Shown piece after piece: positions 3,982 through 33,285 of a stretch of 33,695 nt of DNA (the first letter of the stretch is position 1; every line of letters begins with the position of its first letter). This stretch comes from a virus. Position numbers and translations under genes: made by a program. The stretch covers positions 1-33,695 of the IMG/VR virus record IMGVR_UViG_3300044712_002671. One strand, written 5' to 3'. The notes beneath the pieces were generated by a model. The model saw nothing but the letters and a program-made list of their open reading frames with translations. It was not told where the DNA came from and ran no database searches.

Positions 3982-5007
3982 ATGAATAAATATCTTTTAG
4001 CTTTGCTTCTCTTCCTGCTTACGGCTTGCGCCAGTGAGCCACCGACAACCCCATCAGCGACGCCGACACCGCCTGCAAACCCGGCAGAGATCGGATTGAC
4101 GATGTTTGCCGATAAGGTCAATGCGGAGGCGACACAGGCGGCTGTGAACCAGGTATTTACCGCAACGGCTCAGGTGATCGCGATTACATCGACAAGTCAA
4201 TTTTTGGGCACGCAAGAAGCTGTGACCCAACAAGCGCGCATCGATGCGCAGGCGACATCCGAGCAGGGTCGAAGGGATGCCGCTGCAACTCAACAACGAA
4301 GAGATGATGATGCGGTAGCAACTCAACAGCGGATCGACATAGAAGCGACACAGGCGCAAGCCCAGCGGGTAATGAATGCACTGGCGACACAGGCGCGAGT
4401 GGATCTCGAAGCGACGCAGCGGGCAGAGGCAACTGCAACATCATGGGCAGTGACTGAGGCGGTAATTCCGCTGCATGATAGTTGGACACAACAGGCAGTA
4501 GAGCAGGACATCGTTATCGCGACCAATGAGGTTGAATTGTCAAATATGGCAGTACAGCAGGAGAAGCGCACTTGGGCAATCCCCTGGGTCATTGGACTTG
4601 GCTTATTTGTAGTCGGGTCGTTGATGACCTGGTTCTGGATGCAGGTACGGACAATCAAAAACGAGGATGGCGGTCCCGATGTCATTATTTACAAAAACCG
4701 ACTGACCGTGAGACCTGACCTGTTTGCACTGCCAATGCTCGACCTTGAAACCAATACCATGCCACCGCTCGCGGACCCGAAGGAACAGAGCGCGGTGACG
4801 ATGAGAGCACAGGCGATTCAGGCTCTCAGTGTGATGCCCTCGGCGCCAGCTTCCAACGCGGCAACGGCGTACAACGGTTTCTTCCCAGCGCAAAAGCGAG
4901 ATGAGGCTTTTGATGTCGTAGACGCCGATGAAGTTCCATCCCATTTATTGGATAGTGAAACGAGAAAAGTCTTAGACAAAGATTGGAAGGATGCCAATGA
5001 CAAATAA
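3982..5007 (+). CDS. Lipoprotein with Ala-Thr-Gln repeat stalk and C-terminal TM anchor
   Basis: The product is 341 aa. Residues 1-16 form a lipoprotein signal peptide ending in the lipobox LTAC, with Cys16 as the lipidated residue, followed by a T/P-rich neck. Residues about 85-160 contain imperfect 12-16 residue repeats of the type ATQQRIDIEATQ, likely a long helical or coiled-coil stalk; the DNA repeats GCGACACAGGCG exactly at 4129, 4345 and 4384. A strong TM segment (about 199-220, AIPWVIGLGLFVVGSLMTWF) is followed by a cytoplasmic domain of about 120 aa. Lipid anchor plus TM would tether it twice to the membrane. An AGGAGAG site precedes the ATG. The last 11 nt overlap the FtsK-like gene, suggesting partnership with that ATPase. 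No family was recognised. Confidence 0.7.
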   Translation: MNKYLLALLLFLLTACASEPPTTPSATPTPPANPAEIGLTMFADKVNAEATQAAVNQVFTATAQVIAITSTSQFLGTQEAVTQQARIDAQATSEQGRRDAAATQQRRDDDAVATQQRIDIEATQAQAQRVMNALATQARVDLEATQRAEATATSWAVTEAVIPLHDSWTQQAVEQDIVIATNEVELSNMAVQQEKRTWAIPWVIGLGLFVVGSLMTWFWMQVRTIKNEDGGPDVIIYKNRLTVRPDLFALPMLDLETNTMPPLADPKEQSAVTMRAQAIQALSVMPSAPASNAATAYNGFFPAQKRDEAFDVVDADEVPSHLLDSETRKVLDKDWKDANDK

Positions 5008-6262
5008 TTTTTCAATGCAGGTGGCGTATCGGACGCTTGACCTTCTTGATGAGAGGCGAGCGCGGTTATATGCCGACCGTAAGGCTTTTTATGTGGTGGC
5101 GTTGGGGGACCGCCTGATGCTGATCTTCGACCCCGCGGTTGTGGATGGCAGGAAGGTGAATGAGGATATGGCGCACGGGCTTTCGACGCGGTTGCAGGGG
5201 CGTCCAGTTGTACGGACGAACAGCCGCGGGTTGTTCTTTCAAGTTGGGTATGAGAAGCCGACTGCGACGCGGGAACTTGCAACCCTGCCGCTGGATATGA
5301 GCAAACAGCCGACGCCGTTCGATATGCCGGTTGGAGAGACCAAGCGTGGGGCGTTGTGGGTTTCGTTGGTAAAGGGAGATTCCTTCCTGGTAGCAGGCAC
5401 GCGCGGTTTTGGGAAGAGCGGAATATTGCAAAGTTGGGTGCAGGCTCTTTTGCATGGCGGTCAAACTTTGGTGTATGCGTATGATGGCAAGGGCGGGACC
5501 GAGTTCGTGCGGTATGTAGGGACGAAGAATTTCCACTACATCTCTGACCTAAAGACCACTCTTACAAAGTTATTCGCGGTTGCAGATGAACGCAGGCGAA
5601 TTTTGATCCGCAGTGGATTTCAGAATGTGCAATCTTATAACGCTGCCCATCCGGCAGATCCACTTGCGCCGATTGCGCTGGTCATCGATGAGGCTGCGAT
5701 GGCTTCAGAAGAGGAACGTGAGATGCTTGTGAGGTTGGTTGAGAAGGAACGCTTTACAGGCTTTCACCCGGTCTATGGAACGAATAGACCGACTGCGGCT
5801 GTGTTGCTGGTGAAAAGCAATCTGGCGACGCGCATCTGCCTGCCTGTGCCGTCGTGGAACGACTCGATGATGGTGATCGGGGTGAAGGGTGCGGAGAGTT
5901 TGGAGAAGGTCACTGGGCGCGGGCTAATCGTGTATCAGGCACGTGTGACAGAGTTCCAGTCTTATTCGGTTAGTTGGATCGAGCCGACCGCAGAGGCGAA
6001 GGCGTTCATCGACGCACAGGCTGAAAACGGACAAGAGCCGACTGAGCCGCGCAACGAAATTGCTGAGATGGCGGAGCGGATCCGGGCGGAGTGGTCGCAA
6101 GGGATGAGTAAAAATCGCGTGGCGCAACTGCTTGGCTGGAAACAATATGGCGGCGGAGTTATGCAGACCGTGAATGCCGTCATCGAATATTTGACCTCTA
6201 CTTCTTCTTCTACTACTCAAAATATGCCCCAAAATGGCGTTTTTGGGGCTGTAGAGGCTTGA
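4997..6262 (+). CDS. FtsK/SpoIIIE-like P-loop ATPase with C-terminal HTH
   Basis: The product is 421 aa. The start at 4997 is preferred over 4991 because GGAAGG at 4985-4990 is correctly spaced for it. Walker A is AGTRGFGKSG (about residues 132-141) and Walker B is IALVIDEAA (about 226-234), with an arginine-rich helix (DERRRILIRSG) between them as in FtsK/SpoIIIE DNA-pumping ATPases. There is no N-terminal TM region; membrane attachment could come from the lipoprotein next door. The C-terminus (about 350-405, SKNRVAQLLGWKQYGGG) looks like a helix-turn-helix, recalling the DNA-orienting gamma domain of FtsK. It may move or segregate element DNA; a Tra-like transfer role, as in integrative elements, is an alternative. 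The 3' end lies inside a compound palindrome. Confidence 0.8.
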   Translation: MTNNFSMQVAYRTLDLLDERRARLYADRKAFYVVALGDRLMLIFDPAVVDGRKVNEDMAHGLSTRLQGRPVVRTNSRGLFFQVGYEKPTATRELATLPLDMSKQPTPFDMPVGETKRGALWVSLVKGDSFLVAGTRGFGKSGILQSWVQALLHGGQTLVYAYDGKGGTEFVRYVGTKNFHYISDLKTTLTKLFAVADERRRILIRSGFQNVQSYNAAHPADPLAPIALVIDEAAMASEEEREMLVRLVEKERFTGFHPVYGTNRPTAAVLLVKSNLATRICLPVPSWNDSMMVIGVKGAESLEKVTGRGLIVYQARVTEFQSYSVSWIEPTAEAKAFIDAQAENGQEPTEPRNEIAEMAERIRAEWSQGMSKNRVAQLLGWKQYGGGVMQTVNAVIEYLTSTSSSTTQNMPQNGVFGAVEA

Positions 6263-10199: not shown

Positions 10200-10682
10200 A
10201 TGCAAGGACGAAAGCCAAAGCCTACGGCGCTCAAGTTGCTGGCTGGCAATCCTGGGAAGCGCGCCATAAATCATGCGGAGCCAAAGCCCAGAGTCGTGTT
10301 GCCAAAACCACCCGGTCATTTGAGTGATGAAGAAAAAGAAAAATGGAAAGCAACGGTGCGTGAGTTGCACCCGCTTGGGTTGATCACCGCCCTTGATAAG
10401 GATGCGCTGGCGATGTACTGCGTGATCTTCATGCGCTGGCAGAAAGCGGAACGGATGGTCCGCGAGAAAGGCGAGATCATCAAGACTGCGGCAGGGAACA
10501 TCATCCAAAATCCCTACCTTTCAATTGCCAACCGCGCGCTCGACCAGTTAAACAAGCTGGGCGCTGAATTCGGGATGACGCCGTCGAGTCGTTCGCGCGT
10601 GAAAACAGACGTGGCGGATCCAGATCGAGAATTGGAGCGGATGCTGTTCGGTCCGCGTGTAACGGTAAAAAACTATGACTGA
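10200..10682 (+). CDS. P27-family terminase small subunit (copy 1)
   Basis: The product is 160 aa. It begins GRKPKPTALKLLAGNPGKR, the hallmark N-terminus of P27-family small terminases, and has the family's C-terminal signature GAEFGMTPSSRSRVK. Small terminase recognises phage DNA and recruits the large subunit for packaging. A G-rich tract upstream could serve as the ribosome-binding site. A second related copy (11901-12389, roughly 45 percent identical by eye) follows the methyltransferase. The gene overlaps the methyltransferase by 8 nt. Confidence 0.88.
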   Translation: MQGRKPKPTALKLLAGNPGKRAINHAEPKPRVVLPKPPGHLSDEEKEKWKATVRELHPLGLITALDKDALAMYCVIFMRWQKAERMVREKGEIIKTAAGNIIQNPYLSIANRALDQLNKLGAEFGMTPSSRSRVKTDVADPDRELERMLFGPRVTVKNYD

Positions 10683-11937
10683 CGAACTTAACTACATTAC
10701 TGAGGGGCTTCGAGGGTTGGCTGTGCCGATTGACAGCCTGCACGAGGATGCCGCGAATGCCCGCGTGGGGCATGACGTGGCGCGCATTGCTGCCTCGCTC
10801 AAGGCATACGGTCAGCGCAAGCCCATCGTCGCCAACCGTTTGCAGGATGGCAAGGTCGAGGCTGGGAATGGAACCTATCGCGCCGCGAAATCTTTAGGTT
10901 GGAGTCATATTGCCGTCGTGTTCGTAGATGACGACCCCGCGACCGCGGCAGCCTTTGGCATTGCTGATAACCGCGTCGCTGAGTTCAGCCGATGGGACGA
11001 AGAGGTCTTGCGCGAGATCGCCAACACCACCGGTGATCTGTTTACCGGCTTCGAGCCTGCCGAGTTGGACGACCTGGTGGGCGTTTCTACAGCAACAGAA
11101 CCCACTATCGAAGATCCCGGCGCCGAGCCAGAGCGCGCCGAGGAGCTGCTCGCCAAGTGGCAGGTGCGGGTCGGGCAGGTGTGGCGGCTGGGCAAGCATC
11201 GCATTATGTGCGGGGATTCCACCCGACAGGCGCACGTGGCGCAGCTGATGGGCGCTGATCGCGCCTGGATGATTTGGAGCGACCCACCCTGGAACGTCAA
11301 CTATGGTGGAAGTGATCATCCATCCTATAAACAACGCTCCATGAATAATGACAACCTCGGCGATAAGTTCCCTGAATTTGTCAAAGCATTCTGTCAAAAC
11401 TTTTTTATATTCAGCCAGCCAGGCGCACCGATCTATTTGGTGATGGGTGCGCAGGAATGGCCGGTGATTGATCAGAAATTGCGTGAGGCTGGTTTTCATT
11501 GGTCATCCACCATCGTATGGGTCAAGGATCAGCTGGTGCTTTCCCGCAAGGATTATCACACCCAGTACGAACCGATGTGGTACGGCTGGAATGCAGATGC
11601 TGCGCGCCTGATTGGTGTCGAGGACCGCAAGCAGTCGGACACGTGGTTTATTGACCGCCCGAAAAAGAGTGACGAACATCCCACCATGAAGCCGCTGGAG
11701 CTGGTGGAACGATCGCTGAAAAATTCCAGCAAGGCGGGGGATGTCGTGCTCGATCTTTTCTCAGGATCCGGCACGACATTGATGGCGTGTGAACGCCTGG
11801 GCAGAGTCTGTCGCACGATGGACAATGACCCGAAGTATGTATCGGTGGCGCTCGAACGTTGGAGTGTTGCCACGGGGAAAACCCCTGAACTGGAGGAGAC
11901 GTGGGCCGGGGAAGAAAACCTAAACCAACAAAGCTAA
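10675..11937 (+). CDS. ParB-like domain fused to N4/N6-type DNA methyltransferase
   Basis: The product is 420 aa. The N-terminal ParB-like domain (about residues 12-110) has the pattern EAGNGTYRAAKSLG. The methyltransferase domain carries the catalytic motif SDPPWN (about 201-206) and the AdoMet-binding motif DLFSGSGTT (about 360-368), in the order of beta-class amino methyltransferases that methylate N6-adenine or N4-cytosine. No restriction endonuclease is adjacent, so it is likely an orphan enzyme protecting phage DNA or marking packaging or replication sites. It sits between two small terminase genes and overlaps both. The recognition sequence cannot be read from the protein. Confidence 0.9.
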   Translation: MTDELNYITEGLRGLAVPIDSLHEDAANARVGHDVARIAASLKAYGQRKPIVANRLQDGKVEAGNGTYRAAKSLGWSHIAVVFVDDDPATAAAFGIADNRVAEFSRWDEEVLREIANTTGDLFTGFEPAELDDLVGVSTATEPTIEDPGAEPERAEELLAKWQVRVGQVWRLGKHRIMCGDSTRQAHVAQLMGADRAWMIWSDPPWNVNYGGSDHPSYKQRSMNNDNLGDKFPEFVKAFCQNFFIFSQPGAPIYLVMGAQEWPVIDQKLREAGFHWSSTIVWVKDQLVLSRKDYHTQYEPMWYGWNADAARLIGVEDRKQSDTWFIDRPKKSDEHPTMKPLELVERSLKNSSKAGDVVLDLFSGSGTTLMACERLGRVCRTMDNDPKYVSVALERWSVATGKTPELEETWAGEENLNQQS

Positions 11938-12389
11938 AAGAACTGGAAGGCAATCCAGGTAAGCGGGCGCTGAACAAGAAAGAACCGAAGGCGGAGTCTG
12001 CAATACCTCCATGCCCCAATCATTTGACGGGCGCGGCGAAAACCGAATGGAACAACCTGACCAAGGAATTGCACGCGCTGAAATTACTTGCGAAGGTAGA
12101 CCGCGCGGCGCTGGCGATCTGCTGCACCGCCTGGGCTGATTATGTACAGGCAGTGAACAAGTTGAAGAAGGAAGGCAGTGTCATCATTTCGGATAAAGGC
12201 GGCATGTACCAAAATCCCTGGGTGGCGATCAAGAAGCGCAGCATGGATCAGGTTGTAAAGTTTTATGCCGAGTTTGGAATGACGCCCAGCAGCCGGTCGC
12301 GCGTGAAGGTGGACACGCCCGGCGAAGAAGACGAGATGACCGCGTTCCTTTTTGGAAACCGAAACGTGAAAGTGAAAACAGATCAGTGA
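11901..12389 (+). CDS. P27-family terminase small subunit (copy 2)
   Basis: The product is 162 aa and starts at a GTG, preceded by a strong GGAGGAG site inside the methyltransferase gene, giving a 37-nt overlap. It shows the same N-terminal (GRKPKPTKLKELEGNPGKR) and C-terminal (AEFGMTPSSRSRVKVD) signatures as copy 1 and has a similar length. Its position 1 nt upstream of the large terminase gene makes it the conventional packaging partner. Both copies appear intact. Confidence 0.88.
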   Translation: MGRGRKPKPTKLKELEGNPGKRALNKKEPKAESAIPPCPNHLTGAAKTEWNNLTKELHALKLLAKVDRAALAICCTAWADYVQAVNKLKKEGSVIISDKGGMYQNPWVAIKKRSMDQVVKFYAEFGMTPSSRSRVKVDTPGEEDEMTAFLFGNRNVKVKTDQ

Positions 12390-12390
12390 A

Positions 12391-14166
12391 ATGGCAAAAC
12401 CCCAGAAGGAGACCTTGCATCCCGCAGAGCAATATGCGCGAGATGTGATCAGCGGGAAAATCGTCGCGTGCAAGTGGGTGCGCCTGGCGTGTGAGCGTCA
12501 TGTGCATGACCTGGCTCACGCGCATGAACGCGGTTTTGTTTTTGATGCGGAAGCTGCCGAGTATACGCTGCGTTTTATCGGCATGTTGCGACATTCAAAG
12601 GGCAAGTGGGGACGCGGCAAAGGGGAATTTCTCAAGCTCGAACCGTGGCAACAATTTATTATCTGGGTTGCATTTGGGTGGAAACGTGATAATTCAGATC
12701 GCTGGATCGAGAAATCACCAGACGGCATGGTGCAGGATACGCGCGGTATGCGCCGCTTTCGTATGTTGTACGAAGAGGTGGCTCGCAAGAATGGAAAGAG
12801 CACAAAGGCAGCTGGGCTGGGATTGTTTCTCGCTTTTGCAGATGGTGAGCCAGGCGCAGAAGTTTATTCCGCAGCCACCAAGCGCGACCAGGCACGTATT
12901 GTGCATAAAGAAGCCATCCGCATGGTTAAGAAAAATGCGGGGCTAAAAAAGCATATACAGGTTTATAAAGACAACCTCAACCTCGAACAAACAGCCAGTA
13001 AATATGAACCATTGGGCGCTGATTCTGACAGCACTGATGGTTTGAACGTACATGCTGTTATTGCCGATGAACTACACGCGTGGAAAAATCGTGAACTTTG
13101 GGACGTGCTGGAAACCGCGACCGGGTCCCGCGAACAGCCGATGCTGATCGCTATCACCACCGCAGGACTGGACCGGCGCAGTGTGTGCTTCGAGAAGCAC
13201 GAATATACCCGCAAGGTGCTCGAAGGCTGGAAGGATGGAACGTTCGAGGATGATACCTGGTTCGGAATTATCTTCACGCTCGATGATGGCGACGATTGGC
13301 GCGACGAAAGCGTATGGATCAAAGCCAACCCGAACCTGAATGTTTCCAAGTACCTCGAAGACATGCGGATGAAATCCAAGCGCGCAGGGCAGATGGCTGG
13401 GGCATTGAACAACTTCCTGCGGCGCGAGTTGAATGTTTGGGTGCAGGGCAGCTTCAAGTGGATGAATATGGACAAATGGCGCGCGTGCGGCGGGGACGTG
13501 CCTGCGCTGCAAATGCTGCGGCATCTAAAAGGACTCACTGGTTATGGCGGATTGGATCTATCGAGCAATTCGGACATCACCGCGTGGGTGCTTGCGTTCA
13601 TCGATGAGGACGACGAGCTATATGTGCATTGCAGATTTTGGGTGCCAGAGGATGCGCTCGAAGTTCCTCCGCATTACCGCTCACCGGACGATGCAAAGCA
13701 GTTACAGCAATGGGTAAAGGATGGATACGTTGAGGCGACGCCCGGGGCTGTGATCGACCATGATTTTATTTATGCGCAGGTCGAAAAGGATGCTGATGGA
13801 ATTGATATCGATCAGATTGCCTTCGACCGTTGGGGGGCGTCGAGCGTGGTGCAAAATTTGGAGAAGCAAGGCATGACAATGGTAAATTTTGGTCAGGGCT
13901 ATCAAAGCATGAATCCGCCCATGAAGGAACTGGAGCGGCTTGTGTTGAGCAAAAAAATACACCACGGCAACAACCCAGTATTAACATGGATGGCTGATAA
14001 CCTGGTGGCGCGTCAGGACCCGGCAGGCAACATCAAGCCGGATAAGGAAAAGAGCCGCGATAAGATCGACGGTATGGTGGCGCTGATCATGGCGCTGGAT
14101 TTGGCGCTGCGGCATCCAGAGAAGAAATCAGTTTATGAAAAACGCGGTATTCGGACACTTGGATAG
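12391..14166 (+). CDS. Terminase large subunit (HK97/YmfN type)
   Basis: The product is 591 aa. The ATPase domain has a Walker A-like motif EEVARKNGKST (about residues 128-138) and Walker B VIADELHAW (about 222-230). The nuclease domain shows the acidic motif GLDLSSNSDIT (about 387-397) and the C-terminal acidic site DKIDGMVALIMALDLA (about 556-571). It cleaves the concatemer and pumps DNA into the prohead. Length and motif order are those of a complete enzyme. The usual next gene, portal, is 4 kb downstream because a cargo region is inserted. Confidence 0.93.
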   Translation: MAKPQKETLHPAEQYARDVISGKIVACKWVRLACERHVHDLAHAHERGFVFDAEAAEYTLRFIGMLRHSKGKWGRGKGEFLKLEPWQQFIIWVAFGWKRDNSDRWIEKSPDGMVQDTRGMRRFRMLYEEVARKNGKSTKAAGLGLFLAFADGEPGAEVYSAATKRDQARIVHKEAIRMVKKNAGLKKHIQVYKDNLNLEQTASKYEPLGADSDSTDGLNVHAVIADELHAWKNRELWDVLETATGSREQPMLIAITTAGLDRRSVCFEKHEYTRKVLEGWKDGTFEDDTWFGIIFTLDDGDDWRDESVWIKANPNLNVSKYLEDMRMKSKRAGQMAGALNNFLRRELNVWVQGSFKWMNMDKWRACGGDVPALQMLRHLKGLTGYGGLDLSSNSDITAWVLAFIDEDDELYVHCRFWVPEDALEVPPHYRSPDDAKQLQQWVKDGYVEATPGAVIDHDFIYAQVEKDADGIDIDQIAFDRWGASSVVQNLEKQGMTMVNFGQGYQSMNPPMKELERLVLSKKIHHGNNPVLTWMADNLVARQDPAGNIKPDKEKSRDKIDGMVALIMALDLALRHPEKKSVYEKRGIRTLG

Positions 14167-14502: not shown

Positions 14503-14716
14503 ATGAAAGCAAAATACACAACTGACCCGAAGGAAATTTACACGCTGGAGCTTCTCAAGCTCCAGCGTGTAAATTTCAGAACTTCAACAGGTGGGAGAAA
14601 GTGTCAGTGAATTAAATAAGGTCGGATGGCGGCAGGTAGAACATTTGCGGCATTTGAATTTCATCATACAGGAAGCAGTCATGACGGGAGTTGTTCTATT
14701 GAAAATTGGCACTTGA
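14503..14716 (+). pseudogene. Small gene disrupted by a palindrome-forming 19-nt insertion
   Basis: From the ATG at 14503 the frame encodes KAKYTTDPKEIYTLELLK and then runs through the right arm of a perfect palindrome to stop after 35 aa (TGA at 14608-14610). In another frame, 14579-14716 encodes a well-formed helical sequence (ELQQVGESVSELNKVG and on to LLKIGT). Removing 14560-14578 (19 nt, essentially the right arm) joins LELLK to ELQQV and restores a 64-aa coiled-coil-like protein. This looks like a foldback template-switch mutation. Assembly or amplification error is the main alternative. No function was recognised. Confidence 0.5.
14533..14577. repeat. Perfect 21-bp palindrome
   Basis: The arms at 14533-14553 and 14557-14577 are exact reverse complements around a 3-nt loop (CTC). 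No T-run follows, so it is not a standard terminator. It lies inside the frame of a small gene and coincides with its frame break. Such long perfect arms with a 3-nt loop are typical of foldback template switching. Confidence 0.85.
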
Positions 14717-14741
14717 CAAAATAGCACGCATGTTCTAAAAT
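14713..14741 (+). promoter_or_regulatory. Sigma70-type promoter of the cargo operon
   Basis: A perfect -35 box TTGACA (14713-14718) and -10 box TAAAAT (14736-14741) are separated by 17 nt. It drives the A+T-rich two-gene operon independently of late phage transcription, as expected for a lysogenically expressed moron. The sequence around the -10 (GTTCTAAAATAAA) resembles those at 9155 and 17154. Confidence 0.75.
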
Positions 14742-14751
14742 AAATCTCGAT

Positions 14752-14792
14752 AGACGCTTGGGTGCCCCCCTCACCCCGGCGTCTGTCATTTT
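14752..14792 (+). terminator. Leader hairpin with weak terminator character
   Basis: The arms AGACGC (14752-14757) and GCGTCT (14779-14784), then GGGTG (14760-14764) and CACCC (14772-14776), form an interrupted 11-bp stem with a C-rich loop. TTTT follows at 14789-14792 after a 4-nt gap. It begins about 11 nt after the -10 box, so it would sit at the very start of the cargo transcript. It may attenuate the operon or terminate upstream late transcription. Confidence 0.45.
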
Positions 14793-14814
14793 CCCATTGA
14801 TTAATTCATATATT

Positions 14815-14863
14815 TCCTGTATAGTTGCACTGATAAAAGTGGAAATCAGAAAACCGTACAGGA
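14815..14863 (+). promoter_or_regulatory. Inverted repeat covering the ribosome-binding site of the cargo operon
   Basis: TCCTGTA (14815-14821) can pair with TACAGGA (14857-14863), which overlaps the AGGAGG ribosome-binding site of the gene at 14871. Pairing would hide the site; alternatively it is an operator. Seven base pairs over a 35-nt loop are weak alone, so this is tentative. Confidence 0.3.
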
Positions 14864-14870
14864 GGATATT

Positions 14871-15893
14871 GTGAATGCAAAAAAGATCATCGTTCATTTT
14901 TTGATAAAAAATGAAAATCAACAAAAAGCGACTATTGATTTATCACAAGAATTGTTAGAAATAAACGAGAAGTCCCTGGATCTTATTGAAAGATTAAATC
15001 TTAGTTATAAGAACACACAAATAACATATGCCTTTTTTAACGATGATGGTCAAAATGTATTTCCCATTGAATTCGAAAAATATTATAATAAATTTAGTGA
15101 AAAATCTTTTTTAGAATTTTCCCAGAAGACAGCCATAAACTTAAAAGAAAAAATTGAAAACATATCCCCGGCGAAGGGGGGATATTTAGTATTTTGCGAA
15201 TATGAAGTTCTAAATCGAAGCTATATAGCAGTCTATCTCATCAGAGATACTATTGGAATGTTGTTCAGAAAGGATAATAACAAATCTGCATTTGTAATTA
15301 GATCAGCTGAACATCTCGACTTAGACAAATTAGCGATGGCTTGCAGAATCAACTTAGAGCAATATAAAGCTGGAGGCGGAAAATATCTCAGTTTTATGAA
15401 AAGAAAGATGTATGACATTTCCGAATACTTTATTAATTGGATTTCCATACAAGATAGAGAAAACAACAAGACATTGACAGAGAGCTTATATGAATTAATA
15501 AACACAGTCGATTTACCTGAAGATGAAACAGGGCAGGAAATATCCAGAGATATATTTAGAGAAAGAGTGTTTAATTATATTAGCACGCTGGACACCAAGA
15601 TTGTTAACATCAACGATCTAAGCGAGCACTTCTATTCAAATGAAACATTCTTGAGAGATTACGCTGAAACAAATAATTTGAGCATTAATACAGAGTTTGT
15701 GCCCGACAACAGAATTATGAAAAAATTTATTCGTATTGATCTTGATTCAGACGGTATTCATGTCAGATTTTCTCGTGAAGACTTGAAAACAAAAATCTGG
15801 TTTGACGAAGATCACCCTAATAGGGTTATTATTGAATCTGAAAAATTTGTTGGCGACCTAAAAAGAGAGGTAGAGCAAGGTGAAGTTGATTGA
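14871..15893 (+). CDS. yejK: YejK/NdpA-family (NA37) nucleoid-associated protein
   Basis: The product is 340 aa, starting at GTG behind a strong AGGAGG. The sequence follows the Escherichia coli YejK pattern along its length: GGYLVFCEYEVLNRSYIAVYL, then a conserved ARINL-like segment (CRINLEQYKAGGGKYLSF), YFINWI, and a C-terminal block ending in KIWFDEDHPNRVII; YejK is 335 aa. The family binds DNA at the nucleoid; E. coli YejK has been reported to interact with type II topoisomerases. GC content is about one third, far below the flanking phage genes, which indicates recent acquisition. It is translationally linked to a membrane protein gene, suggesting a DNA-sensing and membrane pair. Confidence 0.85.
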   Translation: MNAKKIIVHFLIKNENQQKATIDLSQELLEINEKSLDLIERLNLSYKNTQITYAFFNDDGQNVFPIEFEKYYNKFSEKSFLEFSQKTAINLKEKIENISPAKGGYLVFCEYEVLNRSYIAVYLIRDTIGMLFRKDNNKSAFVIRSAEHLDLDKLAMACRINLEQYKAGGGKYLSFMKRKMYDISEYFINWISIQDRENNKTLTESLYELINTVDLPEDETGQEISRDIFRERVFNYISTLDTKIVNINDLSEHFYSNETFLRDYAETNNLSINTEFVPDNRIMKKFIRIDLDSDGIHVRFSREDLKTKIWFDEDHPNRVIIESEKFVGDLKREVEQGEVD

Positions 15894-17115
15894 TGTTGTA
15901 AAAACGCTGAATGATTTAGCGAGCAAATCAATTAGTTTCAATTTGGATTACTCTTCAGGAATATCCATAAATTACAAATTTAATAACCGTGCTGAATTCG
16001 AAGAAAAGTTTCTTGGAATTCCATTTGTCAGACTTGGTAAAAATGATGTTCAAGTAGATATACGCAAATACCCAGGATTGTATTACAACAAAGAACAGTT
16101 TTTGAAAGACTGCAACATCAACAGCTTAGAATGTGATGTGGCTATCATTTTTTATAATGAAGGATACTTATTTTACGAATCAAGTTCTGGAAAAGTAGTT
16201 ACTAATACCAAGGTGTCAGATGAAGGTCGTTTTCTTAAAAATGCCATTTATTATTTAAGGTTTAGAGAAGAATTTAAGAATTCAAAAATTGTTTCTTATC
16301 ATAGCTCTGCAGGCCGTGAATATGTAGTTCTTTCTCCTGAAAAGGGTAAGATGTTAATAGGATATCCGCCCGTGCCTCCTGAGTTTATGCCTGAATACGA
16401 CTTGGTTGATTTATTTAATAAGTATCAAAAAATTAACGGATCGCAAGAGTACCAAGCCTTCTTTAAGGGGCATGTTATTGATGTACTAGTTACATACGAC
16501 AAGGATCAAAAATTCCCTGAATTTATTAAAAATTTAGAGCATTTAATTGACTTGAGCGACAGAGATTATGAGGTGTATATTAGCAAATTCTCGTTTGAGA
16601 AACTAAAAGAGAATTTCAAGAAAGAACGCAATGAATATTTTTCTAGGGTTAGGGGGATTATAAGTCAGTTACTAAGCAAGGTTGTTTCAATACCAATTTC
16701 CATATCTGCTTCTGCTCTGGCTGTTTACAATCTCAAAGATGACCCAGGTAATGCATTTGTAGTAGTAGTTGCCTTTATTATTTATTCTTACTTCACGTCA
16801 TTTTTATTACGTTTATTGCACTATGATGTTTTTGAACTACAGCATGATTTCGACAAAGAAATTGAGATGGTAGCAAAGTATTCAAACATTCCAAAAAACG
16901 ATCTAAATATAGAAACGTCAAAGGTTTTCAAGAGAATTGACATGCTACAATTCTCGTTTGTGTTATTCCAAATTGTATTGGCTATATTATCAGTTACTGT
17001 TTTATTTGTGTTTTCTCAACTCCTTTCAGTGTCAACGAAGTCGTTGCTTTTGATTCTTGCTTCTGTTTTAGATGTGCAATTAATTATATCTTTTTGGAAG
17101 CTAGATAAAAATTAA
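15880..17115 (+). CDS. Uncharacterised protein with soluble N-terminal domain and four C-terminal TM segments
   Basis: The product is 411 aa, starting at a GTG 14 nt inside the preceding gene (GAGAGG at 15865-15870 as ribosome-binding site). Residues 1 to about 250 form a mixed alpha/beta soluble domain with no motif I recognise. Residues about 260-283, 291-312, 355-383 and 387-406 are hydrophobic and form a four-TM C-terminal domain with a cytoplasmic-type loop (about 313-353) that is acidic and then lysine-rich. GC is low, like its partner. A sensor or adaptor domain on a membrane module beside a nucleoid-binding protein fits the design of many two-gene anti-phage systems (compare Kiwa in concept), but no homology to a known defence protein is claimed. 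Confidence 0.6.
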   Translation: MKLIDVVKTLNDLASKSISFNLDYSSGISINYKFNNRAEFEEKFLGIPFVRLGKNDVQVDIRKYPGLYYNKEQFLKDCNINSLECDVAIIFYNEGYLFYESSSGKVVTNTKVSDEGRFLKNAIYYLRFREEFKNSKIVSYHSSAGREYVVLSPEKGKMLIGYPPVPPEFMPEYDLVDLFNKYQKINGSQEYQAFFKGHVIDVLVTYDKDQKFPEFIKNLEHLIDLSDRDYEVYISKFSFEKLKENFKKERNEYFSRVRGIISQLLSKVVSIPISISASALAVYNLKDDPGNAFVVVVAFIIYSYFTSFLLRLLHYDVFELQHDFDKEIEMVAKYSNIPKNDLNIETSKVFKRIDMLQFSFVLFQIVLAILSVTVLFVFSQLLSVSTKSLLLILASVLDVQLIISFWKLDKN

Positions 17116-17134
17116 TAACCGCAGTATTTTATGC

Positions 17135-17170
17135 TTGACAATTTACTTTGCGCGTTCTATACTTAGAACG
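17135..17170 (+). promoter_or_regulatory. Sigma70-type promoter with operator-like palindrome (upstream of leader B)
   Basis: A perfect -35 TTGACA (17135-17140) and -10 TATACT (17158-17163) are spaced by 17 nt. The -10 lies in a palindrome CGTTCTA-TACT-TAGAACG (17153-17170), a likely repressor or activator site. It would restart transcription of the head and tail genes downstream of the inserted cargo operon. The design matches the palindrome-embedded -10 at 9152-9169. Confidence 0.75.
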
Positions 17171-17190
17171 TAAGAGCGAATAATTTAGGC

Positions 17191-17229
17191 AGTCCTGGTC
17201 TTGTGCTGGGACGTTTGTCGGAAATGATG
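17191..17229 (+). ncRNA. Structured leader element B
   Basis: The stem 17192-17199 (GTCCTGGT) pairs with 17205-17212 (GCTGGGAC) through Watson-Crick and G-U pairs around a 5-nt loop. It is followed by GTCGGAAATGATGC (17217-17230), identical to leader A. The 3' stem strand differs from that of A at two positions yet pairing is kept. GTCGG (17217-17221) can also pair with CCGAC (17233-17237), which is part of the terminator's left arm, so two exclusive folds are possible. Confidence 0.65.
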
Positions 17230-17269
17230 CGCCCGACGATTCTCGAAAGAGAGTCGTCGGGCGTTTTTT
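17230..17269 (+). terminator. Intrinsic terminator of leader B
   Basis: A 10-bp perfect stem (CGCCCGACGA at 17230-17239 with 17254-17263), extended by about five further pairs (one of them G-T), closes on a GAAA tetraloop and is followed by six T residues (17264-17269). It lies only about 65 nt after the expected transcription start and 20 nt before the next gene, so it should stop most transcripts unless antitermination occurs. Confidence 0.88.
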
Positions 17270-17998: not shown

Positions 17999-18189
17999 AC
18001 TTTTTGAAGTCTCTCGACCCCAATCAACTGACGTATTGGCTCGGTATGCTGATGCTGTTTGTGGGGCTGAGTCTGTCTGTTTCTGTGGCAACGGCGCTCG
18101 TGACGGTCGGGGCTGCGATCGCGGCGGAGTCTGTGGTTACGTCTTACCTGGCGACGTGGGTGGCTGAAAAATCCACAAGGAAAAAATAA
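17995..18189 (+). CDS. Small membrane protein (64 aa), holin-like
   Basis: The start overlaps the preceding stop (ATGA) and the stop overlaps the portal start. A long hydrophobic stretch (about residues 14-48, WLGMLMLFVGLSLSVSVATA and on) can form one or two TM segments, with a basic C-terminus (EKSTRKK). Size and charge fit a class II or III holin or a holin partner. No family match was recognised. Confidence 0.5.
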   Translation: MNFLKSLDPNQLTYWLGMLMLFVGLSLSVSVATALVTVGAAIAAESVVTSYLATWVAEKSTRKK

Positions 18190-19781
18190 TGCCATTAACT
18201 TCGCGCATGATCGCAGAAAGGCGGTCAGACAGCTTCCATGTTTCGCAAAGCCCGCCTGGCTGGGTTGTGCGAGGATATGGTCAAGAGTCCTATAGTGGTG
18301 AAACTGTGACCGTGGAAGGCGCGCTCAGCGTGGCGTCCGTCCTCTCAGCGTTTACGATTTTGATGGAGGACACTGCCAGTCTGCCGTTGATTACCTATCG
18401 ACGATTGACCCGGGGCAAGGAACGCGATGTCAACAGCCCATATTACATCCTGCTGCACGACATGCCCAACCCCGAGCATACGAGCATGGTCTACCGTGAA
18501 TTCATTATGGGGCATTTGCTGGGTTGGGGCAATCATTTCAGCCAGAAGATATGGGATCGACGCGGTGTTCTGCGCGAGCTGTGGCCCTTACGCCCTGATC
18601 GGATGGTTGTGAGCCGCAAAAATGGACAGCGGCAATACACCTACACCGAACTGAACGGTAATAAGCGCGTGTTCCGTCAGGAGGATATTTGGCACATCCC
18701 CGCCTTTGGCTTTGACGGGTTGATCGGCTACAGCCGGATTACATTGGCGCGAAATGCCATAGGTTTGGCGATTGCTGCCGAGAAATTTGGCGGTAGTTTC
18801 TACAAAAACGGCGCGAACTTTGACATTGTGATCAAGCATCCGGGGGAGTTAAGCGATGATGCGTATGATCACTTGCAAGAGTCAGTCGATAAAAAGCACG
18901 TAGGCGTTGAGAACAGCCATAAACCAATGATCCTCGAAGAGGGAATGAGCATCGAAAAGATCGGTATCCCGCCCGATGATGCCCAGTTTATCGAGACCAG
19001 ACGCTTCCAATTGGGCGAAATTGCGAGAATGTTCCGCGTTCCGCCGCACATGATGGGTGACGTGGAGCGCACGACCAGCTGGGGCAGCGGCATCGAACAA
19101 CAGGAACTTGGGTATCTGTCGCACACATTGCGACCCTGGCTCAAGCGCATCGAGCAGGGCGCGCATAAGGATTTGCTGCTTGAGTCGGAGCGTAAAGACA
19201 CGGTCATCGAGCATTTGGTCGAGGATTTCCTGCGCACAGACATTGGCGCACGCATGACTGCTTATGTTGCCGCCATTACAAACGGAATTTTCACCCGTAA
19301 CGAGGTTCGCGAACGTGAAAACCTAATCCCGATAGACGGCTTGGACCGCATGTTGATGCCTTTGAATATGACCACGGTCGATGGCGTAGAGAAAAAGCCG
19401 GTCAATACAAAGACAAATCGCTCGGATTTCGACCCTCGTCCGTTTATTTTGGATGCCGCTCAACGGGCTGTACGACGCGAAACGAAGGAATTATCGGACG
19501 CAGCCAAGCGCTGGATCGAAAAAGATAAGCCTGAAAAATTCTCCGCCTGGCTTGAACAGTTTTATAAGGCGGACCACCGCGAATTTCTGCGGAGAACTTT
19601 CAACCCTGTCATGGATGTGCGCGTTGAGCAGTTGATCGTGGATTATTGCGAACTGCACGGCGAGGTAATCCTGGGTGCTGTGTCTGGTGAAGAAGATCTT
19701 GAATCGTTGATGCGGGCATGGTCTGAAAATATCCCGCTTGAACTTACCGAAGCCATATTGATGGAGAATGACGATGACTAA
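18189..19781 (+). CDS. Phage portal protein (HK97 family)
   Basis: The product is 530 aa. It shows the conserved portal features: LSVASVLSAFTILMEDTASL near the N-terminus, a central PLRPDRMVV, DIWHIPAFGFDGLIGYS, and QLGEIARMFRVPPHMMGD before the clip and stem regions. The portal is the dodecameric ring at one capsid vertex through which terminase drives DNA and to which the tail attaches. Upstream come small membrane proteins rather than the terminase, showing the packaging block was split by cargo. The start overlaps the preceding stop (TAATG). Confidence 0.92.
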   Translation: MPLTSRMIAERRSDSFHVSQSPPGWVVRGYGQESYSGETVTVEGALSVASVLSAFTILMEDTASLPLITYRRLTRGKERDVNSPYYILLHDMPNPEHTSMVYREFIMGHLLGWGNHFSQKIWDRRGVLRELWPLRPDRMVVSRKNGQRQYTYTELNGNKRVFRQEDIWHIPAFGFDGLIGYSRITLARNAIGLAIAAEKFGGSFYKNGANFDIVIKHPGELSDDAYDHLQESVDKKHVGVENSHKPMILEEGMSIEKIGIPPDDAQFIETRRFQLGEIARMFRVPPHMMGDVERTTSWGSGIEQQELGYLSHTLRPWLKRIEQGAHKDLLLESERKDTVIEHLVEDFLRTDIGARMTAYVAAITNGIFTRNEVRERENLIPIDGLDRMLMPLNMTTVDGVEKKPVNTKTNRSDFDPRPFILDAAQRAVRRETKELSDAAKRWIEKDKPEKFSAWLEQFYKADHREFLRRTFNPVMDVRVEQLIVDYCELHGEVILGAVSGEEDLESLMRAWSENIPLELTEAILMENDDD

Positions 19782-32217: not shown

Positions 32218-33285
32218 CTATGAGTTTTGTTTGAGCAGTGCGAGGAGTTCAATAATCCTGGCTTCGATGTCTTCCTTTCTCTCCAGATGCGCGCCGGCAG
32301 AGGTAGATTTGCTTCCAAGAGTGGTGATGATGTTTCGCACCTGGTCGGTCGCGAGTCCGCTGTAGATTTGATCTGTGATGATGGTATTGGCGTGCATGAC
32401 GTTTTGGGATATTGCCTTGACCTGCTCCATGTTTTGCGCGCGGCTGCGGGCGTAGACGATATGTCCGTGACGGAACTTGTGCGGGGACTTGTATTCGATA
32501 CCCGCCTTTTTGCAGATCAAGATCGTATCATCCCGAACGATCGTGCCGCGCTCCTGGATGGCGTGGGTGGATTCACGCATTTGCATGCCGTCATGATTGA
32601 GGGGCGCAAACCAGAGCGCGTTGGGTGAAAAGTTTTTAGCGCGAAGGCGCTGGTCCCAGGCGGTGACGATTGACAGCAGATCGGGGATGTCCAGCAGATA
32701 AGTGATGGCAGCCTTGTTGTTCTTGGTACGAGGTCCCATCGACGGCACCTGAAATATACGCATATTGGGCAGGTCAATACATTGAAGGGGCAGCGAGGAC
32801 AGGGTGTCGTCCCGCATCCCGGACAGGTAGAGCAAACAGGCTGCCGCCTGGGCGCGGGCTTCGCGCAGCGTTTCTACAGAAACAGAGGCAATGATGCGCA
32901 GTTCTTCGAGGGTGTAGTATTTGTGATCATCGAGCCGCGGCTGGGGTTTGGTCAGCCGACTGGGATACAGCGAATCCACCCATGAGTCTGTGACCTTGTT
33001 GTAGCGTGACCAATTGCGATGGGCGTAGGTAAAGAACATGCGCGTGGTGGCAAGGGTTTTATAGATGGTGGTATAGCTGAGCGGCGTTTGTTTGCCATCG
33101 TTGCGGGCAGTGATGAGATACGCGGGAAAGGTTAAGTCCATACTGCGGGCATTGGGCAGCGGCGTCTCGTCTGCCCATTCGATGAGGTGGCGCAAATAGA
33201 TGCGATATTTCTGAATGGTTTTCGGGGAACGATCAAGGGTGGCAAGCCAGGCGCGGACGTCGAGCCAGTTTTGTCTGTTTATCAT
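32218..33285 (-). CDS. Tyrosine recombinase / integrase
   Basis: The product is 355 aa. The N-terminal SAM-like core-binding domain (about residues 1-105) is followed by the catalytic domain. Catalytic residues are Arg158 (SGMRDDTLSSL), the HKFRH box with His269 and Arg272, His298 (NVMHANTIIT) and nucleophile Tyr308 (DQIYSGL). All of R, H-x-x-R, H and Y are present, so it should be active. It integrates and excises the element. It is ATGA-coupled to the HTH-zinc ribbon gene upstream. No attachment site was identified. Confidence 0.93.
   Translation of the reverse strand: MINRQNWLDVRAWLATLDRSPKTIQKYRIYLRHLIEWADETPLPNARSMDLTFPAYLITARNDGKQTPLSYTTIYKTLATTRMFFTYAHRNWSRYNKVTDSWVDSLYPSRLTKPQPRLDDHKYYTLEELRIIASVSVETLREARAQAAACLLYLSGMRDDTLSSLPLQCIDLPNMRIFQVPSMGPRTKNNKAAITYLLDIPDLLSIVTAWDQRLRAKNFSPNALWFAPLNHDGMQMRESTHAIQERGTIVRDDTILICKKAGIEYKSPHKFRHGHIVYARSRAQNMEQVKAISQNVMHANTIITDQIYSGLATDQVRNIITTLGSKSTSAGAHLERKEDIEARIIELLALLKQNS

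Follow-up and report, generated by a model that had tools for sequence, protein, structure and literature searches.

A divergent gene pair of putative DS-1 type occupies a cargo slot between the terminase and portal genes of a temperate phage

According to the available portion of PMC13092281, DS systems were cloned in Escherichia coli MG1655 and validated against 24 phages; the YejK nucleoid-associated domain was the first-named of the new defence domains, and DS-1 was validated as an anti-phage system in E. coli in 2026. The same portion of the text does not spell out DS-1 gene by gene and gives no mechanism for it. Judging from the order of this domain list and from the names of NCBIfam models, DS-1 (DefensePredictor discovered system 1) appears to be the YejK system: model NF053868 (DS1_1) is named "nucleoid-associated anti-phage protein", and its partner model NF053869 (DS1_2) represents the second DS-1 protein. 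Here, a phage-encoded pair of overlapping genes, A and B, was compared with this system. With a probability of roughly 0.55, the pair was interpreted as a divergent anti-phage operon of the DS-1 type that is carried as lysogenic-conversion cargo and acts by membrane-tethered silencing.

The window, as the whole analysed stretch of 33,695 nucleotides is called here, is IMG/VR record IMGVR_UViG_3300044712_002671, a 33.7-kb phage record. The pair lies between the genes for the large terminase (TerL; 12391-14166, plus strand; 56 relatives in viral contigs) and the portal (18189-19781, plus strand; supported by tblastn to sister phages), and small backbone genes are also present in this gap. Because an integrase gene is encoded (32218-33285, minus strand; phrog_1 integrase, E 6e-17), the phage was considered temperate. 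Its capsid protein shares 48% identity with the capsid protein of Streptomyces phage Chymera. Two small-terminase-like genes that are 45% identical to each other (10203-10658 and 11901-12389) were found in the window and likewise in several sister phages; in the window, a ParB-methyltransferase fusion (10675-11937) lies between them. The early region encodes a ParB-like protein and an FtsK/SpoIIIE-like protein (431-2140, 4991-6262), which is unusual for a 34-kb phage.

Gene A (14871-15893, plus strand) encodes a protein of 340 aa and gene B (15880-17115, plus strand) a protein of 411 aa, both from GTG start codons. Gene A is preceded by the Shine-Dalgarno sequence AGGAGG (14860-14865, plus strand), and the two genes overlap by exactly 14 nt (15880-15893, plus strand), an arrangement that likely couples their translation. 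The pair is located in an insert (14792-17132, plus strand) delimited by empty-site alignment with the sister phage L002. The GC content of the insert is 0.322, compared with 0.537 in the remaining phage, and no other phage stretch of this length falls below 0.507. The first-pass annotation of the window had described a low-GC two-gene insert between TerL and portal with a 14-nt overlap, and this description, including both open reading frames, was confirmed. Chance open reading frames, phage structural genes and a housekeeping pair were also considered as identities of A and B and were rejected.

Sister phages, about 20 in number, were collected from terminase relatives and by a pattern scan, and two conserved backbone elements were found to frame the insert. 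The first of these, E1 (14713-14791, plus strand), consists of a strong promoter (TTGACA-N17-TAAAAT, 14713-14741) and an RNA hairpin (about 14749-14790). The hairpin core, GGGTGCCCCCCTCACCC, is near-invariant, and the stem carries compensatory changes among the sisters. E1 is conserved in ten sister phages, the majority of them without genes A and B (copies at L002:8256-8334, L055:8253-8332, L008:4297-4375 and elsewhere), and was found in 29 viral DNA stretches, some of them without any other sign of the window phage family. The promoter and leader hairpin that had been assigned to the pair as its own thus belong to the phage backbone. Within the insert, the stretch preceding gene A holds a single promoter-like match (14797-14825); it is weak (9/12), and such matches are no more frequent in this region than in shuffled sequences.

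The second element, E2 (17135-17264, plus strand), is located just ahead of the portal-capsid genes and comprises a promoter (TTGACA-N17-TATACT), a transcript of about 100 nt that contains a small hairpin and, at its end, a strong intrinsic terminator (17229-17264), the stem of which covaries among sister phages. This arrangement is reminiscent of the late promoter of lambda, from which a small terminated RNA is made. Copies were found at L005:5689, L010:5824, L057:8729 and elsewhere, and L006 carries two (4030 and 7764). Neither E1 nor E2 matched an Rfam family. Upstream of both elements, a backbone gene of about 70 codons (window start 14503) is intact in L002, L003, L007 and L055; in the window, a perfect 21-bp inverted repeat with a 3-nt loop (14533-14577) replaces sequence inside this gene and shifts the frame. 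This change resembles the outcome of template switching or an artefact of assembly.

In about 15 cargo-free sisters, E2 begins 23-41 bp from the end of the E1 motif. The alignment of L002 with the window runs to 14791 and resumes from 17133, with 5 bp between, which places the pair exactly between E1 and E2. Other sisters carry other genes in this slot. In L055 (8384-9614) and L207 (2773-4000), it holds genes for a 250-aa unknown protein and a PIN-domain protein (Pfam PIN, E 3e-6) with a GC content of 0.36-0.40, a candidate toxin-antitoxin or defence module. The slot of L183 (8556-9928, minus strand) contains an overlapping pair encoding 303 aa and a hydrophobic 154 aa (GC 0.35), with no significant match in Pfam or PADLOC, and that of L188 contains a small ORF. 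The E1-E2 slot is a cargo hotspot of temperate phages, as the term is applied to P2 and P4 in the available part of PMC9122126.

Gene A had been assigned to YejK/NdpA (NA37), and this assignment held. The protein matched Pfam NA37 (PF04245) over residues 7-316, i.e. the whole domain, with E 1.1e-39 and 137 bits, above the curated cut-off of 24.6 bits. It also matched NCBIfam YejK (E 1.7e-40, under the equivalog cut-off) and PHROG 3767, nucleoid associated protein (E 8e-47). The AlphaFold model had a pLDDT of 90.7, and its best PDB match in Foldseek, over the whole length, was E. coli YejK (9be2; E 6e-19, TM about 0.68). By these profile and model comparisons, the protein is an NA37 family member with a YejK fold, and it may bind DNA. 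It gave no match to the DS1_1 model (NF053868, cut-off 330 bits) at E up to 0.001 or even up to 1. In a quick tree of NA37 proteins, it was placed on a very long branch (2.9 changes per site) whose position was not firm, and the solitary YejK proteins formed one group with modest support (72).

Gene B had been described as having an unrecognised soluble domain and four C-terminal transmembrane segments. Hydropathy indeed indicated a soluble part of about 260 residues followed by four hydrophobic helices (264-282, 292-310, 360-378 and 388-406), with a helical hairpin between helices 2 and 3 that was also present in the predicted model. The orphan status did not stand, since the C-terminal half matches DS1_2: residues 200-338 matched NCBIfam NF053869 (DS1_2_antiphage) with E 1.6e-9 and 37.4 bits, far under the curated cut-off of 315 bits, and residues 199-378 matched phrog_5023 with E 6e-14. 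A family profile built without the window protein recognised gene B with E 1.2e-18 (for a database size of 100,000), and the match was limited to residues 174-384; none was obtained with the reversed gene B sequence. The same profile detected no sequence relation to other family members before residue 174. No Pfam match to gene B was found, and neither A nor B matched any PADLOC model at E up to 1.

In the family core, FS--K is followed by a long helix, by L-IP where TM1 begins, by TM2, by a helical hairpin on the cytoplasmic side and finally by TM3. The C-terminal membrane helices with a cytoplasmic hairpin, by which the DS1_2 superfamily is recognised, were found in gene B by hydropathy and in the model; relative to its relatives, gene B adds a fourth C-terminal helix. 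Since the conserved soluble helix (FSxEK ... LxIPxxxxA) continues straight into TM1, it is compatible with a membrane-anchored stalk in the cytoplasm. The K, D and Q residues conserved before TM1 in the relatives (HK--SDIQNQ) are gone in the window protein.

Structure prediction, which the first-pass annotation had suggested for the second protein, yielded a helical model, a long helical bundle across the membrane, in which the N-terminal domain had low confidence (pLDDT 50-75). Structure searches with it returned generic helical bundles only, under the background for helical proteins. These data bear on the main rival to silencing, abortive infection, in which the NA37 protein would sense either DNA of the phage or a disturbance in host DNA topology, and B would permeabilise the inner membrane, so that the cell is killed or arrested. 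The membrane-spanning bundle and the combination of a soluble sensor with a multi-TM effector in a single overlapping operon are consistent with such a role. However, no conserved charged residues were found in the hydrophobic segments of B, no pore family was matched, and the structural matches did not exceed the helical-bundle background. Killing through the membrane was therefore regarded as possible but rather unlikely.

Single-protein scans of viral contigs detected no close relatives of either A or B. A tblastn search with gene B found nothing in plasmids and one weak match in phages, MT836560, directly downstream of an NA37 gene, and this match opened the way to the family. NA37-bearing phage records supplied four more pairs (MT836560, MT835580, Klebsiella phage Kp4865-4 and Sinorhizobium phage phi2LM21), and scans with their alignment yielded 75 bacterial and 40 viral loci. 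An NA37 gene immediately preceded B on the same strand, in most cases with an overlap, at 115 of 120 B-like loci, some of which are copies of one contig; because the loci were found through B, this fraction is the chance of NA37 given B. The other five are contig ends, truncated copies or loci with a broken NA37 gene. As a rule, the overlap in homologous pairs is about 4-59 nt. In a systematic model search of 296 genomes of one order, 18 of 19 hits were paired with NA37, and the 19th was a pseudogene with an internal stop; many of these genomes also carry a separate, higher-scoring NA37 gene, the housekeeping YejK. All 65 sampled B proteins matched NF053869, and all but one of 59 paired NA37 proteins matched NF053868, the sole exception being gene A of the window.

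The pairing of NA37 with a B-type membrane protein is nearly obligatory. The first-pass annotation had regarded two findings as arguments against its proposal, namely homologues that are never paired and a confident match of B to a housekeeping family. The neighbourhood analysis refuted the former, and no match of the latter kind was found. Thus, gene A very probably encodes an NA37/YejK-fold protein that acquired an obligate membrane partner, and gene B that partner, a member of the DS1_2 superfamily. Two small overlapping genes on mobile elements could also form a toxin-antitoxin or prophage stabilisation module without an anti-phage role, but A and B exceed typical toxin-antitoxin partners in size, and cloned DS-1 protects against phages according to the available text of PMC13092281; this explanation seems highly improbable.

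The genomic context of the relatives was also informative. One E. coli pair (L219:12001-14203), present in 14 of 5426 genomes, is located between the holin and antiterminator Q genes of a lambdoid prophage, antiparallel to the phage genes. A second, DS-1-like pair (L267:8537-10929, strain CREC-544) occupies the identical holin-Q slot, again antiparallel to the phage genes; over 104 aa of B, the two types are only about 28% identical. A relative of the NA37 gene of the CREC-544 pair gave a partial match in 105 genomes, and neither of the second genes in E. coli has an annotation other than "hypothetical protein". Elsewhere, the immediate neighbours of pairs include Hachiman HamA, AbiJ, DNA methylases, resolvases, transposases and phage Q. 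The prophage location, a cargo slot common to two prophage pair types and the membrane protein itself would suit superinfection exclusion, in which B alone blocks injection or the injection machinery at the membrane and NA37 is a regulator or chaperone. A plain exclusion protein, however, needs no conserved partner of DNA-binding type, and the pairing is almost without exception; nor is it expected to adjoin defence genes outside prophages. Superinfection exclusion was therefore considered unlikely.

Pairs were also found in bacterial chromosomes without phage structural neighbours. This argues against a role of the pair in serving the DNA of its own phage (replication, packaging or nucleoid attachment), as does its absence from most sisters, in which the flanks are otherwise collinear, and the strong GC contrast of the insert with the phage. 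Such a role would accord with the adjacent terminase and portal genes and with the solitary NA37 genes of phages, for example F116-like phages, which lie among recombination genes and may act in this way, but it appears very unlikely for the window pair.

The reading of A and B as defence cargo is well supported because B belongs to the DS1_2 superfamily, its homologues are practically always paired with NA37, and the slot is variable in temperate phages; within this superfamily, activity against phages is reported for DS-1 alone (PMC13092281). This part of the earlier proposal, a candidate for a new defence or superinfection-exclusion system, therefore stood; the novelty of the system type did not. 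The proposed plan of a DNA-binding sensor and a membrane effector is one among several candidate mechanisms. "New defence system" is too strong because a combination of NA37 with a membrane protein has already been described (NF053868, NF053869, and PMC13092281 as far as its available text goes).

Because of the analogy with Kiwa (PMC12904381, available part), the silencing of incoming phage DNA by a membrane-tethered DNA-binding complex was tentatively favoured as the mechanism, with somewhat less confidence than the operon reading as a whole. Three or four helices would anchor B in the inner membrane, leaving its N-terminal domain and helical hairpin on the cytoplasmic side; B would also bind the NA37 protein, which may coat or bridge DNA. 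Expressed in the lysogen, the A-B complex would wait at the membrane. Injection of DNA by another phage, or a membrane disturbance, could then load NA37 onto the incoming DNA and block its transcription and replication, as described for Kiwa with unrelated proteins; in this way, the window copy might confer anti-phage activity. A more far-reaching reading would make the window pair a separate NA37-membrane defence class in which the N-terminal part of B serves as a trigger domain of its own; the E1/E2-framed slot would be a hotspot for defence cargo in an unclassified family of temperate phages, and E1 a novel structured phage RNA that governs expression of the cargo. This reading was considered doubtful.

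The near-obligatory pairing at more than 100 loci, the conserved stalk-TM1 core and a naturally occurring variant whose N-terminal domain has been exchanged provide handles on how a nucleoid-associated protein turned immune. The E1/E2-framed slot, with differing low-GC pairs in individual sisters, is a place to seek further unknown systems. This site with exchangeable cargo is the more original part of the findings, and the pair is a divergent variant of a validated system.

Among known systems, Kiwa, according to the available part of PMC12904381, has a similar two-gene plan of a membrane protein (KwaA, four-TM) and a DNA-binding protein (KwaB). The window pair differs in the large soluble domain on its membrane protein, in a DNA-binding-type protein from another family (NA37) and in the lack of a match to any PADLOC model. 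KwaB was absent among the Foldseek matches of gene A listed, which is no proof of a fold difference. The likeness to Kiwa appears to be one of plan and not of homology. E. coli YejK (NdpA, 9be2) has an identical fold across the full length of gene A; however, it is about 20% identical to gene A, and its gene stands alone on the chromosome, with no membrane partner. The Pseudomonadota prophage pairs of the DS1_2 superfamily (for example phi2LM21 p68/p67 and Kp4865-4) are alike in gene order, overlap, length and the C-terminal half of B, whereas window B is only 14-19% identical to theirs and does not keep their HK--SDIQNQ residues. With DS-1, the window pair has in common an NA37/YejK gene whose downstream neighbour, overlapping or adjacent, encodes a membrane protein of about 400 aa, as well as the FS--K and L-IP core of the second protein; the E. 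coli relatives are likewise prophage-located. It differs from DS-1 in the score of B (37 bits against a cut-off of 315), in gene A without a DS1_1 match, in the unrelated N-terminal part and extra C-terminal helix of B, and in a host phage unlike lambdoid phages. Because B scores below the cut-off, its homology is confined, gene A does not match DS1_1 and the NA37 branch is long and unplaced, it may be concluded that the window pair belongs to the DS1_2 superfamily as a very divergent branch and is not DS-1 itself.
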